From Asticcacaulis benevestitus DSM 16100 = ATCC BAA-896 (GTDB lineage Bacteria; Pseudomonadota; Alphaproteobacteria; Caulobacterales; Caulobacteraceae), in contig NZ_AQWM01000002.1 in the NCBI RefSeq assembly GCF_000376105.1, positions 372,001-436,000 of the forward strand: a stretch of DNA of 64,000 bases, given 5' to 3'. The notes beneath the pieces were generated by a model. That model worked only from the letters and a program-made list of their open reading frames with translations, did no database searches and was not told where the DNA came from. Each line of letters opens with the position of its first letter. Within the stretch, counting starts at the first letter, position 1. A program made the position numbers and the translations under genes. Below, one piece after another: positions 2,233-13,071 of the stretch.

Positions 2233-2427
2233 GAGGGACCAAATAAGTCTGTGCAGGAAACGGTGGATGATAACCCTGTATAAGTCGGGACGGTGTGGGG
2301 ATGATCATCGGCCAATTCGTCAAACGCCGCAAGGCCGGGGATAAGGCTGATAAAGGCGGTGTTTTATGCGTCAATTATTCGGCCGTCACAAATCTGTATG
2401 AAATCCTTATGGCTTGCTGTGGGTATG

Positions 2428-2442
2428 TTAAGACTTCATTAA
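2428..2442. promoter_or_regulatory. CtrA box 1
   Basis: TTAAGACTTCATTAA matches TTAA-N7-TTAA exactly and is followed by CC, as in many CtrA sites. It is the leftmost of the origin cluster. Confidence 0.85.
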
Positions 2443-2469
2443 CCATGCACATGCCAGCGCGCCCGGACA

Positions 2470-2484
2470 TTAACAAATTCTTAA
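2470..2484. promoter_or_regulatory. CtrA box 2
   Basis: TTAACAAATTCTTAA is an exact TTAA-N7-TTAA match, 42 bp (about four helical turns) from box 1. Confidence 0.85.
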
Positions 2485-2490
2485 GCAATC

Positions 2491-2505
2491 CTAATATTTG
2501 GTTAA
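2491..2505. promoter_or_regulatory. Degenerate CtrA box 3
   Basis: CTAATATTTGGTTAA keeps the 7 nt spacing with one mismatch in the first half-site. It lies 21 bp from box 2, close to two helical turns, so the two could be on the same DNA face. Confidence 0.55.
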
Positions 2506-2529
2506 TTATCCAAGTCATTCACAGGGGTG

Positions 2530-2544
2530 TTAAAAGTTCTTTAA
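2530..2544. promoter_or_regulatory. CtrA box 4
   Basis: TTAAAAGTTCTTTAA is an exact match followed by CC. It is nearest to hemE and could affect the hemE promoter as well as origin firing. Confidence 0.85.
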
Positions 2545-2682
2545 CCTTTCGGGCGTGCTTGTGAAAAACCGGTGAATCCGGGCAAATCTGCGACACTTTT
2601 CCGCATTATCCCGCCCTCTATAAACCTCTACATACCTTTCTTTTTAGATAGGTTTGGGTCATGAGAGTGCGGACAGGCCAGT

Positions 2683-2706
2683 GGCCAAACCCCAGGCCAA
2701 ACCCCA
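2683..2706. repeat. 12 bp tandem repeat before hemE
   Basis: GGCCAAACCCCA occurs twice head to tail, in the hemE leader 11 nt before the ATG. It contains no obvious ribosome site, so its effect on hemE translation is unclear. Confidence 0.85.
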
Positions 2707-2716
2707 GGATTGACTC

Positions 2717-3742
2717 ATGACAAAACAAGGCTCATCGGTATTATCGGTTCTCAGCGGTCAAACGCTTGCGGTTCCTCCGGTCTGGTTCATGCGTCAGGCC
2801 GGGCGCTACCTGCCGGAATACCGGGAATTGCGGGCATCGACCAAGGGGTTCGTTGATTTTTGCCTGACGCCCGAGAAGGCGGCCGAGGCCACCTTGCAGC
2901 CGATCAGGCGCTTTGGCTTCGACGCCGCTATTCTTTTCTCCGATATTCTGATGATCCCGCTGGCGCTGGGGCAAGACCTGACGTTTGCAGCCGGTGAGGG
3001 GCCTATCCTCGGTGAACTGCCCGATCTTCAGGTCATGCGGGAAAAAGCGGTCTCGGCAGGAGAGGCTTTGAAGAATGTCGGCGAAACCGTAGCGCGTGTG
3101 AAAGCCGAACTAGGACCGGAGACAACCCTGATCGGTTTTTGCGGCGGGCCCTGGACGGTGATGACCTATATGCTCAATGGGAAGAAGGCGCATGACCGCA
3201 GCCTGATCCGTGCTTTCGTCTATGATAATTATCAGCAGGTGCTGGATCTCATTGATATTGTGATCGAGGCCTCGGCGCATTATCTGAAAATGCAGGCCGA
3301 TAATGGGGCGCAGGTCCTGAAGATCTTCGAGAGCTGGGCGGAAGGTTTCCCTGATCCTTATTTCGACAGCCTGATCATTCAGCCGCACATCCGTCTGATC
3401 GCACGGGTGAGGGCGCTCGGTGTAACCCTGCCGATTATCGGTTTTCCGCGTGGCGCCGAAGCGCGTTGCCATGATTACATCGATCAGGTTGCGGTTCAGG
3501 GCTTAGGGCTCGGTACGGCCACGCCGATGAAACTGGGCCTCGAACTGCAAAAGAAGGCGCCGATTCAGGGCGCGCTTGATCCGGTGGTTTTGCGCTCCGG
3601 CGGCAAGGCGCTTGATCAGGCCATTGATCTGATAGTGGAAAACTGGGGGCAGGGGCCCTTGATCTTCAATCTCGGTCACGGCATCTTCCCCGATACGCCG
3701 ATTGCCCATGTCGAGCAGGCCTTGAAACGGATCAGGACATAA
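2717..3742 (+). CDS. hemE: Uroporphyrinogen decarboxylase
   Basis: Converts uroporphyrinogen III to coproporphyrinogen III in haem synthesis. The 341-residue length is typical. The signature PPVWFMRQAGRYLPEYRE spans residues 20-37 with substrate-binding Arg26 and Arg30, Asp76 in FSDILMIP corresponds to the catalytic aspartate, and GFCGGPWTVMTYM follows near residue 140. It begins directly after the origin and its stop codon abuts the hemH ATG, so hemE-hemH-hemJ form an operon. Its promoter must lie inside the CtrA-bound origin, which would tie haem gene transcription to origin state. Confidence 0.97.
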   Translation: MTKQGSSVLSVLSGQTLAVPPVWFMRQAGRYLPEYRELRASTKGFVDFCLTPEKAAEATLQPIRRFGFDAAILFSDILMIPLALGQDLTFAAGEGPILGELPDLQVMREKAVSAGEALKNVGETVARVKAELGPETTLIGFCGGPWTVMTYMLNGKKAHDRSLIRAFVYDNYQQVLDLIDIVIEASAHYLKMQADNGAQVLKIFESWAEGFPDPYFDSLIIQPHIRLIARVRALGVTLPIIGFPRGAEARCHDYIDQVAVQGLGLGTATPMKLGLELQKKAPIQGALDPVVLRSGGKALDQAIDLIVENWGQGPLIFNLGHGIFPDTPIAHVEQALKRIRT

Positions 3743-7392: not shown

Positions 7393-8730
7393 GTGTTTCA
7401 CGTGAAACATACGATTTTCGCTCTTGCCAGCGCACAGGGCCGGGCAGGGGTGTCGATCATTCGCCTCTCAGGCCCGCAAGCCCTTTGGGCCGCGCAACAG
7501 CTCACCGACAAAAACCTGACGCCGCGCGTGGCGACCTATGCACCGCTGACCTATCAGAATGAACTGATCGATGAGGCGGTGATCATCTGGTTCAAGGCGC
7601 CGCACAGCTTCACCGGTGAAGATTGTGTCGAGCTACACGTCCACGGCTCAAAGGCCATTCTCGATCGCCTCTATATCATCCTTCTCGAACTCGGCCTGAA
7701 ACTGGCCATGCCGGGTGAGTTCTCACGCCGGGCGCTGGAGCACGGCAAGCTCGATCTCACCCAGGCTGAAGCTATCGCCGATCTCGTTGATGCCGAATCC
7801 GAAGCGCAAAGGCGGCAGGCCCTGACCCAACTGGGCGGGGGGCTCAAGGCACAATATACGTCGTGGCGATCGGACCTGATCGACCTCTTGGCGCGCCTCG
7901 AAGTCTATATCGATTTTCCTGACGAAGACCTGCCGACCGAACTGGCCGATAGCATTCTGGATCGCATCCGCTCGCTGGAACACGCGCTGGATGTTGCCAT
8001 TGCTGATTCCCACCGGGGGTGCCAAATCCGCGAGGGCTACCGGATCGTTATTCTGGGTGAACCCAATGCGGGCAAGTCGAGCCTGTTTAATGCGCTGCTA
8101 AAAGCTGAGGCGGCGATTGTTACGCCCATCGCCGGAACCACGCGCGATATCATTGAGGCGCAGTTGCGCATCGGGCCCTATTCGGTTTTGCTTTACGACA
8201 CAGCGGGTCTGCGCGAAACAGACGAAGCGATCGAGGCAGAGGGTATTCGCCGGGCTCGCGCTAAGGCCGAAGAGGCCGACCTGCGCATATGGGTGATCGA
8301 TTCCACCGGGCCTGCCCTGCCGGAAGATTTCCGCGACGGCGACCTGATGGTCTTTAACAAGATCGATGAGGCTCAGGATTCCGAGCGTCAGGCTGTGGCG
8401 GCCTTGCGTGTTTCACGTGAAACATCGGTCTTCGCTGTCAGCGTGTCGATGGCTACGGGTATGACCGACCTGGTCGCAACCATCGAACATATCATCAGCG
8501 AACAGCTTTCCGCCCAGACCTTCCCGGCCGCGACGCGCCAGCGTCACATCGAGCGCCTGACCGAAGCGCGCGATCAACTCGCCATTGCCCGCCGATCCGA
8601 TCTCGCCGTGCCCGAGTTAACGGCTGAAAACGTCCGCTCAGCGGTTAACAGTTTTGATCAGCTCTTTGGCCGTTATGATGTTGAAGGCGTGCTCGATGTC
8701 ATCTTTTCTAGCTTTTGCATCGGCAAATAA
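7393..8730 (+). CDS. mnmE: tRNA modification GTPase MnmE
   Basis: With MnmG makes the cmnm5U34 wobble modification of tRNA. It is 445 residues with an N-terminal folate-binding domain, a G domain (GEPNAGKSS P-loop near residue 220, IAGTTRD switch, DTAGLRET, NKID) and the C-terminal FCIGK with the catalytic cysteine. A perfect parS site covers 7394-7409, so the GTG at 7393 abuts it and the alternative GTG at 7402 is inside it. The 7402 start gives MKHTIFALAS, closer to the family, with AAGTAAGG 10 nt upstream; the start is uncertain. A second parS lies within the gene and encodes RVSRETS. Confidence 0.95.
   Translation: MFHVKHTIFALASAQGRAGVSIIRLSGPQALWAAQQLTDKNLTPRVATYAPLTYQNELIDEAVIIWFKAPHSFTGEDCVELHVHGSKAILDRLYIILLELGLKLAMPGEFSRRALEHGKLDLTQAEAIADLVDAESEAQRRQALTQLGGGLKAQYTSWRSDLIDLLARLEVYIDFPDEDLPTELADSILDRIRSLEHALDVAIADSHRGCQIREGYRIVILGEPNAGKSSLFNALLKAEAAIVTPIAGTTRDIIEAQLRIGPYSVLLYDTAGLRETDEAIEAEGIRRARAKAEEADLRIWVIDSTGPALPEDFRDGDLMVFNKIDEAQDSERQAVAALRVSRETSVFAVSVSMATGMTDLVATIEHIISEQLSAQTFPAATRQRHIERLTEARDQLAIARRSDLAVPELTAENVRSAVNSFDQLFGRYDVEGVLDVIFSSFCIGK
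7394..7409. promoter_or_regulatory. parS: parS site 1
   Basis: TGTTTCACGTGAAACA is an exact match to the consensus chromosomal parS palindrome bound by ParB. It lies at the mnmE translation start, about 4.9 kb from the origin. Confidence 0.95.
8409..8424. promoter_or_regulatory. parS: parS site 2
   Basis: Exact consensus TGTTTCACGTGAAACA inside the mnmE coding sequence, about 1 kb from site 1. The codons give R-V-S-R-E-T in the C-terminal part of the G domain. Confidence 0.95.
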
Positions 8731-10680: not shown

Positions 10681-11327
10681 TGAACCATATGACCCCTGAA
10701 GAGATGTCAGCGCGGCTGATGTTTCACGTGAAACACGAGGCGATCGCCGACCTGCAAAAGTTTTATCAGGTGCTGGCGGATGGCAATGAGGTGATGAACC
10801 TTGTCGGGCCAGCCACCTTACCGGACTACTGGTCACGCCATGTGCTTGATAGTGCGCAACTGCTCGACTGTCGGCCGGATGCCCGGACATGGGCTGATCT
10901 GGGGGCTGGCGCCGGCTTTCCCGGTATCGTGCTGAGCATACTTCTAAAACATTCTACAACTTTGGCCGACGGCCCTGCACCGCACGTCTATCTGGTTGAA
11001 TCCCTGACCAAGCGTTGCCGCTTTCTCCAGACTGTCGTTGATGATCTCAACCTCCCCGCAACGGTGATCAATGACCGCGCCGAGAACGTCTCGGTTAAGG
11101 TTGATGTGGTGACAGCGCGCGCCGTCGCGCCGATGATCAAGCTTTTGGGCTTTGCCGAGGGCTTTATTCGCAAAGGCGCCGACGCTTGGTTTTTAAAGGG
11201 GGAAAACGTTGAAAGTGAACTGGTGGACGCTGGAAAAGTGTGGAAATTTGACGTAGAACAGTCAGAGTCCATGAGCGATCCGCGCGGTCGCGTGATCCAT
11301 ATCCGGAGGCTGCGACGTGCCCGTTAA
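10680..11327 (+). CDS. rsmG: 16S rRNA (guanine527-N7)-methyltransferase RsmG
   Basis: SAM-dependent methyltransferase that makes m7G527 in 16S rRNA, 215 residues. ADLGAGAGFPGIVLS near residue 77 is the SAM-binding motif, and RAVAPMIKLLGFAE and WFLKGENVESEL match the family. The N-terminus includes FHVKH, encoded by parS site 3, so this variable part of the protein is shaped by the ParB site. It starts in the mnmG stop codon (TGATG) and runs 11 bp into parA, so translation of the three genes is probably coupled. Confidence 0.95.
   Translation: MNHMTPEEMSARLMFHVKHEAIADLQKFYQVLADGNEVMNLVGPATLPDYWSRHVLDSAQLLDCRPDARTWADLGAGAGFPGIVLSILLKHSTTLADGPAPHVYLVESLTKRCRFLQTVVDDLNLPATVINDRAENVSVKVDVVTARAVAPMIKLLGFAEGFIRKGADAWFLKGENVESELVDAGKVWKFDVEQSESMSDPRGRVIHIRRLRRAR
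10720..10735. promoter_or_regulatory. parS: parS site 3
   Basis: Exact consensus TGTTTCACGTGAAACA in the 5' part of rsmG, about 600 bp before parA. It could also allow ParB spreading over the parAB promoter region. Confidence 0.95.
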
Positions 11328-12135
11328 TACCGAAAAACGCACCCGAGTTCTGGCGATCGCAAACCAAAAAGGCGGGGTCGGCAAGACGACGACGGCGATT
11401 AACCTCGGCACGGCCCTGGCCGCTATCGGTGAGCGCGTCTTGCTGATCGATCTCGACCCACAGGGCAATGCCTCTACTGGTCTGGGTGTACCCAAGAAGC
11501 AGCGCGCCAGCTCGCTTTATGATGTGATTGTCGATCAGCGTCCGATTGGTGATACGGCTGTTAGTACGGCGGTGCCGGGCCTGTGGCTGCTGCCGTCCGA
11601 TCCGGATCTGTCGGGTGTCGAGATTGAGCTGGCTCAGGCCGAGCGCCGCTCCTATCGTTTACGCGATGCGCTTGACGGACTTGACCAGGATAACCCGCCT
11701 TATGACTACATTCTGATCGATTGTCCGCCGTCGCTGAACCTGCTGACGGTCAATTCGATGAGTGCGGCCGATGCCGTGCTGGTGCCGCTGCAATGTGAGT
11801 TCTTCGCGCTCGAAGGGCTCAGCCAGTTGATGCGCACGATTGATCTGGTGCGCGGCAGCCTGAATCCGAAACTGAGCCTTCAGGGCATCGTGCTCACCAT
11901 GTTCGACAAGCGCAATGCGCTCTCGGGGCATGTTGAGCGTGACGTACGTTCGCACTTTGGTCATCTGGTGTATGACACGGTCATACCGCGCAATGTGCGG
12001 GTGTCCGAAGCGCCGTCCTTCGGTAAGCCGGCTCTGATCTATGATATGAAATGTTCCGGCAGCCAGGCCTATATCAAGCTGGCCAAGGAGCTTGTGGCGC
12101 GTGAACGCGCGCGCAAAGCTCAGGTTGCCGCTTAA
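11317..12135 (+). CDS. parA: Chromosome partitioning ATPase ParA
   Basis: DNA-binding MinD/ParA-family ATPase that moves ParB-parS complexes. It is 272 residues with the deviant Walker A KGGVGKTTTAINL near residue 17, LLIDLDPQGNASTGLG, a Walker B-like YILIDCPPSLNLLT and the conserved RGNV-like site PRNVRVSEAPSFGKP. The GTG start at 11317 has CGGAGG 7 nt upstream and lies within the last codons of rsmG. It is followed by parB after 27 bp. Confidence 0.96.
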   Translation: MPVNTEKRTRVLAIANQKGGVGKTTTAINLGTALAAIGERVLLIDLDPQGNASTGLGVPKKQRASSLYDVIVDQRPIGDTAVSTAVPGLWLLPSDPDLSGVEIELAQAERRSYRLRDALDGLDQDNPPYDYILIDCPPSLNLLTVNSMSAADAVLVPLQCEFFALEGLSQLMRTIDLVRGSLNPKLSLQGIVLTMFDKRNALSGHVERDVRSHFGHLVYDTVIPRNVRVSEAPSFGKPALIYDMKCSGSQAYIKLAKELVARERARKAQVAA

Positions 12136-12162
12136 AAACGCCCACGATACGAAAGCCGATAC

Positions 12163-13071
12163 ATGTCTGAAAAAAATAGAGGTTTGGGCCGCGGGCTCTC
12201 CGCGCTTCTCGGCGATCAGGGTACGAACAGCCCGATGACGGATGCTGCCGCCGTCGCAGAACGCGCGGCCGAACGCAGTGCCGATCAGGCGCGCGGTCTT
12301 GAGCAACCCATCGAATTGCTGGTCCGCAATCCCGATCAGCCGCGCCGTTTGTTCGTCGAATCCGACATTGATGAGCTGTCGGCCTCGATCAAGGAGAAGG
12401 GTGTTTTGCAGCCTATTCTTGTCAGGCCCGCCCCCGGTCAGACCGGGCACTACCAGATTGTCGCCGGTGAACGTCGCTGGCGTGCGGCGCAAAAAGCCGG
12501 CCTGCACACCGTGCCGGTCATCATCCGTGAGATGGACGATCTCGATGTGCTCGAAATCGGCATCATCGAAAACGTGCAACGCGCCGATCTGAACCCGATG
12601 GAAGAAGCGCGTGCCTACAAGGTTTTGCAGGATCGCTTCGGGCGCACGCAGGATGCCCTGGCGCAGGTGGTGGGCAAGAGCCGTCCGCACATCGCCAATA
12701 TGCTGCGCCTGCTGGCCCTGCCGGAAGCCGTGCAGGATCACGTATTGCATGGTCGCCTGTCGGCGGGCCACGCGCGTGCGCTGATCACCTCCGAAAACGC
12801 TGCGGCGCTGGCGGAGGAAGTCATCGCCAAGGGGCTGTCCGTCCGTCAAACCGAAGCGCTGGTCCGTGAGGAATTGGCCGGTCCGAAAGCCGCGCCGGCG
12901 CCGAGGGCCAAGGCGCAGCCGAATGCCGACACCCTGTCGCTCGAACAGGATTTGCAGGAGGCTCTGGGCCTGACGGTGAAGCTGGACGACAAGGGTGGCA
13001 AGGGCGAACTGCGTTTGGGCTACGCGAGCCTCGAACAGCTCGACGAGCTGTGTCGTAAGCTAATGAAATAA
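12163..13071 (+). CDS. parB: Chromosome partitioning CTPase/DNA-binding protein ParB
   Basis: Binds parS and spreads as a CTP-dependent clamp; essential for segregation in Caulobacter. The 302 residues include the N-terminal ParA-interaction motif GLGRGLSALLGD, the CTP-binding motif GERRWRA near residue 107 with ENVQRADLNPMEEA, a helix-turn-helix (VVGKSRPHIANMLRLL) and a C-terminal dimerisation domain. Three perfect parS sites lie 2-5 kb upstream. It is the last gene of the run and converges on holA. Confidence 0.97.
   Translation: MSEKNRGLGRGLSALLGDQGTNSPMTDAAAVAERAAERSADQARGLEQPIELLVRNPDQPRRLFVESDIDELSASIKEKGVLQPILVRPAPGQTGHYQIVAGERRWRAAQKAGLHTVPVIIREMDDLDVLEIGIIENVQRADLNPMEEARAYKVLQDRFGRTQDALAQVVGKSRPHIANMLRLLALPEAVQDHVLHGRLSAGHARALITSENAAALAEEVIAKGLSVRQTEALVREELAGPKAAPAPRAKAQPNADTLSLEQDLQEALGLTVKLDDKGGKGELRLGYASLEQLDELCRKLMK

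Follow-up and report, generated by a model that had tools for sequence, protein, structure and literature searches.

The 484-bp gap between ppsR and hemE in Asticcacaulis benevestitus (positions 2233-2716 of the window, the 64-kb stretch of DNA analyzed here) is very probably the chromosome replication origin of Asticcacaulis, because of its hemE/ppsR flanks, the neighboring parS sites and parAB genes, a change of sign in GC skew at hemE in a congener assembled as one contig, and the presence of CtrA in the genome. Our main reading, to which we assign a probability of roughly 0.8, is that this origin is built on a composite core of CtrA and DnaA sites, and that the five-site, G-box layout of Caulobacter may be an elaboration of the same shared core. 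The locus and its regulatory logic correspond to those of Caulobacter crescentus, but the layout does not.

The gap coincides exactly with the space between two divergent genes identified by domain match: ppsR on the minus strand (1366-2232; Kinase-PPPase, DUF299/COG1806) and hemE on the plus strand (2717-3742; URO-D). It contains the only three perfect TTAA-N7-TTAA CtrA boxes of the whole window, at 2428-2442, 2470-2484, and 2530-2544, and a fourth box at 2491-2505 (CTAATATTTGGTTAA; one mismatch) with a degenerate left half and a right half that directly adjoins a pair of DnaA-like sites. The cluster spans 117 bp (2428-2544), with start spacings of 42, 21, and 39 bp. Shuffled versions of the window held a mean of 0.10 perfect boxes and at most 1 (100 shuffles), versus the 3 observed; for the gap itself, the mean was 0.021, with none of 5000 dinucleotide shuffles reaching 3, and four boxes at one mismatch or fewer were matched by only 1 of 2000 shuffles. 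Several CtrA boxes beyond chance in the hemE-ppsR gap are a mark of Cori in the broad sense. These motif counts and shuffles bear out a preliminary description of the DNA, which had reported three perfect boxes and one degenerate box within 117 bp between ppsR and hemE, 42 bp from 2428 to 2470 and 21 bp from 2470 to 2491. The same description had placed GANTC methylation sites with the boxes; two such sites do occur in the gap (2574 and 2712), but both lie outside the box cluster.

Several further features of the window and its surroundings can be recorded here. GANTC is depleted approximately 2.8-fold across positions 1-64000 (101 observed versus 288 expected), as selection on CcrM methylation might lead one to expect. 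Between maf and ppsR (1221-1359) lie two nested inverted repeats, of 37 nt (81%) and 31 nt (84%), terminator-like or mobile-element-like. A tandem 12-nt repeat, GGCCAAACCCCA, is found between the origin and hemE (2683-2706) in two copies, with three in the nearest congener (L010; G022:C1:177619-178642), where hemE is split over two matches with internal TGA stops, a frameshift that is either real or assembly-derived. A group of CtrA boxes at C3:154-159 kb was considered as a second origin and rejected: of its four boxes, two sit immediately upstream of an mraZ/mraW/ftsL/ftsI-like run, with genes named by eye and two perfect boxes at G000:C3:154073 and 154299 (L174), and the group looks like ordinary CtrA regulon.

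The proposal that a replication origin lies beside hemE, already made in the preliminary description, gains support from several sources. Three perfect parS motifs, at 7394-7409, 8409-8424, and 10720-10735, are present in the window, versus 0.01 expected at two mismatches, and all three lie, together with parA-parB (11317-13071, plus strand; ParB above the cut-off of its domain model, ParA by similarity and below the cut-offs of the matched models), within 11 kb of the gap. CtrA is encoded in the genome (equivalog model NF045991, 413.7 bits versus a cut-off of 350), as are DnaA and GcrA. The ppsR/hemE flanks, with at least three CtrA boxes at one mismatch or fewer, were recovered in 25 of 25 Asticcacaulis genomes searched. 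GC skew had been proposed as a check on the origin, and a sign switch was found at hemE in the single-contig congener (G014), where skew is -0.029 to the left and +0.052 to the right within 20 kb. In a profile of 20 samples of 20 kb from this genome, each of the ten samples between 0.6 and 2.4 Mb has negative skew; past hemE, at 2.51 Mb, skew is positive through 3.6 Mb and from 0 to 0.4 Mb, except at 2.8 Mb (-0.007), with a value near zero at 3.0 Mb (+0.006), and a second switch lies roughly opposite hemE. The window's own contig is less exact: its cumulative skew minimum falls at 328 kb rather than 374 kb, 46 kb to the left of the gap, but the curve is flat from 328 to ~375 kb (-7.36 at 374.5 kb versus -7.58 at the minimum), a profile that is compatible with an origin at the gap without pinpointing it.

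DnaA sites in the gap had been described as weak and non-consensus, and this holds: none lies within one mismatch of TTATCCACA anywhere in the 484 bp. Nine matches at two mismatches are present, however, against ~0.9 expected from their density in the window (123 in 64 kb), an approximately tenfold enrichment. This clustering, together with a conserved doublet, is again what a Cori in the broad sense would hold, here at the level of sequence only. The doublet consists of two directly abutting, head-to-tail 9-mers, TTATCCAAG and TCATTCACA (2506-2523, plus strand), each weak, followed by GG (to 2525) and set inside the best-conserved block of the gap, TTTGGTTAATTATCC...CACAGG; its TTATCC and CACAGG are invariant, or nearly so, in the genus. 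Two further weak DnaA-like 9-mers lie on the minus strand: ATACCCACA (2418-2426), beside the leftmost CtrA box and with a conserved CACA core, and TTTTTCACA (2560-2568; motif scan and alignment), which on the plus strand reads as the conserved TGTGAAAA. According to PMC4285127, the Helicobacter pylori DnaA box equals TCATTCACA, and TCCCCA, which we find in the gaps of many relatives, is the C. crescentus W-box. The doublet and two of the CtrA boxes overlap the least stable 60-mer of the 64-kb window (2465-2524), a candidate site of DNA opening. A second AT-rich element (2616-2655) is a competing candidate for unwinding, or may belong to the hemE leader. Within Asticcacaulis, 20 of 24 gaps have their least stable 40-mer at the core, and in 3 of 24 it begins 65-130 bp upstream of hemE.

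The arrangement of these elements is conserved across the genus to a degree that the surrounding sequence is not. With the DnaA doublet as zero, located by a position model built without any CtrA box, the boxes at 2428, 2470, 2491, and 2530 occupy slots -78, -36, -15, and +24. At one mismatch or fewer, boxes fill slot -78/-77 in 15 of 15 non-redundant Asticcacaulis loci, -36 in 14, -15 in 13, and +24/+30 in 9 (+24 being clade-specific and +30 found in other Asticcacaulis); all three core slots are occupied in 12 of the 15. The window's gap (L005) is approximately 50% identical to those of distant congeners, and linkers and N7 spacers have diverged, while distances are constant to 1 bp in the genus. 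Invariant columns number 63 of 484 across 13 divergent representatives, mostly within ~2400-2600. Mean majority values in these 13 gaps are 1.00 (invariant) for the half-sites of the 2428 box versus 0.56 for its spacer, 0.94 versus 0.69 for the 2470 box, and 0.62 versus 0.47 for the 2530 box, whose half-sites are poorly conserved.

For comparison beyond the genus, gaps were grouped by lineage. Group g31 was taken as Caulobacter on the basis of a GcrA (from G110) that shows no difference across 173 aa from the solved GcrA 7ye1, which we take to be the C. crescentus protein, together with the published G-box and IHF site; g12 was taken as Brevundimonas from the close alignment of one of its gaps with that of B. 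halotolerans; and g16 is Phenylobacterium. Of 94 loci entered in the layout count, 89 have a divergent ppsR (none was found for L060, L063, L161, L105, and L128, which were dropped); L010 (G022, hemE with stops), L050 (a short copy of L164), and L077 (same contig as L029) had been excluded before this count, L175 did not enter the analysis, and L055 was extended with L148. The set of 71 non-redundant gaps contains one member of each duplicate pair (L071 = L059, L074 = L234), and the 9 gaps counted for g16 represent 8 distinct loci. The sample covers 57 of 174 non-Asticcacaulis genomes of the family, and 13 of 80 named loci are in the layout count. The register test left out L030-L034 and most of L078-L147, from other families or orders; L086 and L113 were included and gave no register match. 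In 21 of 21 Caulobacter, 15 of 15 Brevundimonas, and 7 of 9 Phenylobacterium gaps (6 of 8 distinct), the 40-mer of lowest stability begins 65-130 bp upstream of hemE, and in the first two groups this is the same place as the 2616-2655 element.

Work by Shaheen and colleagues from 2009 is said to have found CtrA sites usually paired with DnaA boxes. In our sample, the doublet scores above the 99th percentile of dinucleotide shuffles in 62 of the 71 gaps, the remaining 9 being without a scorable doublet, and a CtrA box stands in register with it in 39 of 47 anchored non-Asticcacaulis gaps (8 have none), versus 0.1 expected from shuffles, with slot limits that were set after viewing the output of the initial, position-unrestricted doublet search. 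Between -130 and +60, 50 of 75 boxes in non-Asticcacaulis gaps fall in 15 of 190 positions. In Brevundimonas (11 anchored gaps of 14), seven boxes lie between -79 and -83 and another seven at -18; Phenylobacterium (7 of 8) has boxes at -35 to -38 (five), -54 (three), and -18 (two); and Caulobacter (15 of 15) has thirteen at -36/-37, five at +12, and outer boxes near -245, +134, and +155. Slot -36 is thus the main core slot of the last two groups. A stricter test, with the anchor and slots (±3 bp) drawn from Asticcacaulis only, still places 38 of 56 gaps in register (Caulobacter 12/15, Brevundimonas 8/14, Phenylobacterium 6/8), with no register box in the single gaps of g11, g24, g26, g30, L072, Oceanicaulis, and Terricaulis. 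The Asticcacaulis-trained doublet model picked the same anchor as the other model in 51 of these 56 gaps; an unrestricted search had put the anchor nearer hemE in several Caulobacter and Brevundimonas gaps, and the search was then limited to -275 to -170 from hemE. Sliding the register, sampled at every fourth shift, is a weak control: the count is 38 at zero, 22 at -4, and 10 at +4, but 27/56 at -20 and 26/56 at +40, as 21-bp steps would produce. The preliminary description had seen the spacing as near multiples of the helical repeat, and the 42- and 21-bp steps do recur genus-wide and are present as a register in sister genera. From one genus to another, slot positions shift by up to 5 bp. 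Slot -36 spans both clades of the family, and -78/-80 and -15/-18 are found mainly in the clade of Asticcacaulis and Brevundimonas, which group together in a published tree (PMC12700997), as Caulobacter does with Phenylobacterium.

Four other explanations bear on this material. The origin could lie elsewhere, for example near dnaA, which is on the same contig 173 kb away (G000:C2:201385), with the gap surviving as a relic. The displaced skew minimum of the contig would fit this, but there is no skew break at dnaA (-1.8 versus -7.4 at the Cori locus), and the sharp switch at hemE in G014, the adjacent parS cluster, and the retention of the gap in every Asticcacaulis genome searched make it highly improbable. 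A second explanation accepts the CtrA boxes and reads them mainly as a CtrA-controlled promoter region for hemE and/or ppsR, with replication control secondary. Promoter-like hexamers do overlap the 2470 and 2530 boxes, and a sigma-70 scan found 5 promoter-like sites in 2200-2760 versus 0.8 expected. The boxes, however, are separated from hemE by ~170-290 bp and from ppsR by 195 bp or more, the 24 Asticcacaulis gaps hold no perfect box within 130 bp of hemE, and promoter function does not predict a constant spacing to the DnaA doublet across genera; we consider it quite unlikely that this accounts for the cluster. The absence of boxes near hemE in Asticcacaulis suggests instead that any CtrA control of hemE differs from that in Caulobacter.

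The other two explanations concern the register itself. All of the loci are homologous and slots drift across genera, and the constant distances could be plain common descent of one AT-rich sequence, with no selection on phase. We find this unlikely, as distances within the genus vary by no more than 1 bp despite diverged linkers and N7 spacers, and slots are occupied or lost by genus. More room must be given to the possibility, doubtful as it is, that the 2491 element is an extended site for DnaA or another factor, and that CtrA binds only at 2428, 2470, and 2530. Its spacer is as conserved as its half-sites (0.86 versus 0.88), so something other than CtrA may constrain the element; the block ATTTGGTTAATTATCC is kept largely as a unit, spacer included; and the left half, variously CTAA, TTAG, TAAA, or TTGA, is never TTAA in Asticcacaulis where a box of one mismatch or fewer is found. 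Yet the corresponding slot (-18) is perfect in five Brevundimonas loci, the element and the 2470 box are 21 bp apart, and the C. crescentus-like locus L150 likewise has a one-mismatch CtrA site 21 bp from a perfect one.

Under our main reading, a composite CtrA/DnaA origin, the core would comprise two weak DnaA-like 9-mers head to tail, CtrA boxes at -78, -36, and -15, and a fourth at +24. The 42- and 21-bp spacings correspond to approximately four and two helical turns and would bring the CtrA boxes to the same face of the helix. CtrA~P may bind this array cooperatively in swarmer cells, covering the doublet together with the region's least stable DNA and blocking orisome assembly; with CtrA dimers ending flush against the doublet, repression would proceed by direct occlusion of DnaA and of opening. 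Removal of CtrA would then allow DnaA to load, beginning at low-affinity sites. The elements, their spacing, and their conservation are observed here; we infer CtrA binding, cooperativity, unwinding, and replication at this origin from C. crescentus.

The use of one register with different slots in sister genera is best read as indicating that the Caulobacter layout is derived on the Caulobacter side, and a simple reading would be a single ancestral core in which slots were gained and lost. We lean slightly toward a broader version, in which the origins of Caulobacteraceae share an ancestral switch (the register and the weak doublet), outer boxes and G-boxes are derived on the Caulobacter side, and CtrA control of replication arose once in the family. 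Arguments about the way replication initiation came under the control of a transcription factor draw largely on Caulobacter; a register of CtrA and DnaA sites that stays fixed from genus to genus suggests how the general switch within Cori may be told apart from its additional elements. Asticcacaulis would then offer a compact version of that switch, with a phase rule that becomes testable by small insertions.

Regulation of Cori by CtrA and weak DnaA sites there are already known; the Asticcacaulis layout and the register are apparently new, on the weak evidence of a literature search that found no account of an Asticcacaulis origin or of the register and had subscription papers mostly outside its coverage. 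According to PMC4468827, CtrA binds Cori in C. crescentus and is believed to keep DnaA away from it, the DnaA sites of Cori being tuned to a low affinity; the paper also cites Shaheen et al. (2009) for the conservation of four of the five CtrA sites among freshwater Caulobacter and for a probably separate origin of marine use. Leicht et al. (PMC7200025) place CtrA binding adjoining the origin of Hyphomonas neptunium.

The known system closest to hand is C. crescentus itself, and its likeness to the window is one of locus more than of layout. The C. crescentus-like L150 (G110) shares the hemE/ppsR locus, CtrA boxes, weak DnaA sites, and AT-rich DNA; the C. crescentus Cori has a central CtrA box at -36 from the doublet, as do its g31 relatives; and it has parS within ~8 kb (PMC4468827), as does the window. 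L150 carries boxes at -483, -273, -225, -103, and -82 (one mismatch) from hemE, positions that agree with the five CtrA sites published for C. crescentus (PMC4468827, PMC1914354), as well as the G-box TGATCCACA and an IHF site, TAACGCTCTGTT, inside a CtrA box. The window's gap lacks the outer boxes, the G-box, and this IHF sequence, of which L005 has no match at two mismatches or fewer (against a degenerate IHF consensus, it has one-mismatch matches only). Among the 24 Asticcacaulis gaps, the IHF sequence has a single two-mismatch match; the exact published site is present in two g31 gaps.

The earlier view that the arrangement matches that of C. crescentus therefore fails for the features that distinguish the latter. 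The exact G-box is found in 0 of 24 Asticcacaulis and 17 of 21 g31 gaps, a perfect box within 60 bp of ppsR in 0/24 and 18/21, and one within 130 bp of hemE in 0/24 and 14/21; none of the three occurs in g12 (15 gaps) or g16 (9, 8 distinct). Where a gap has at least two perfect boxes, these span 42-108 bp in Asticcacaulis (22 gaps) versus 257-387 bp in g31 (17 gaps; three of the 21 g31 gaps have no perfect box), so that CtrA sites do not extend across the whole origin in Asticcacaulis as in a C. crescentus-type layout. Perfect boxes near both genes also occur in g24 (L065), g28 (L066), and the MAG L072, none with an exact G-box, and almost in g15 (L067), which has a perfect box 61 bp from ppsR, just beyond the 60-bp limit, and no exact G-box; this occurrence outside g31 lowers the odds of an ancestral switch with outer boxes derived on the Caulobacter side. 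L072, labeled Brevundimonas vancanneytii, resembles Caulobacter in the spread of its boxes (-427 and -68), and its hemE is only 55% identical to the query; its label or lineage may be off. The Brevundimonas gap is like that of the window in that its CtrA boxes stand -79 to -83 and -18 relative to the same doublet, and in having neither a G-box nor gene-proximal perfect boxes; it differs in having no -36 box in 11 anchored loci and no perfect box at all in 6 of 15. Farther afield, the Rickettsia and Wolbachia origins, as described in PMC1914354, are likewise hemE-linked and carry CtrA, DnaA, and IHF motifs, a likeness drawn here by description.
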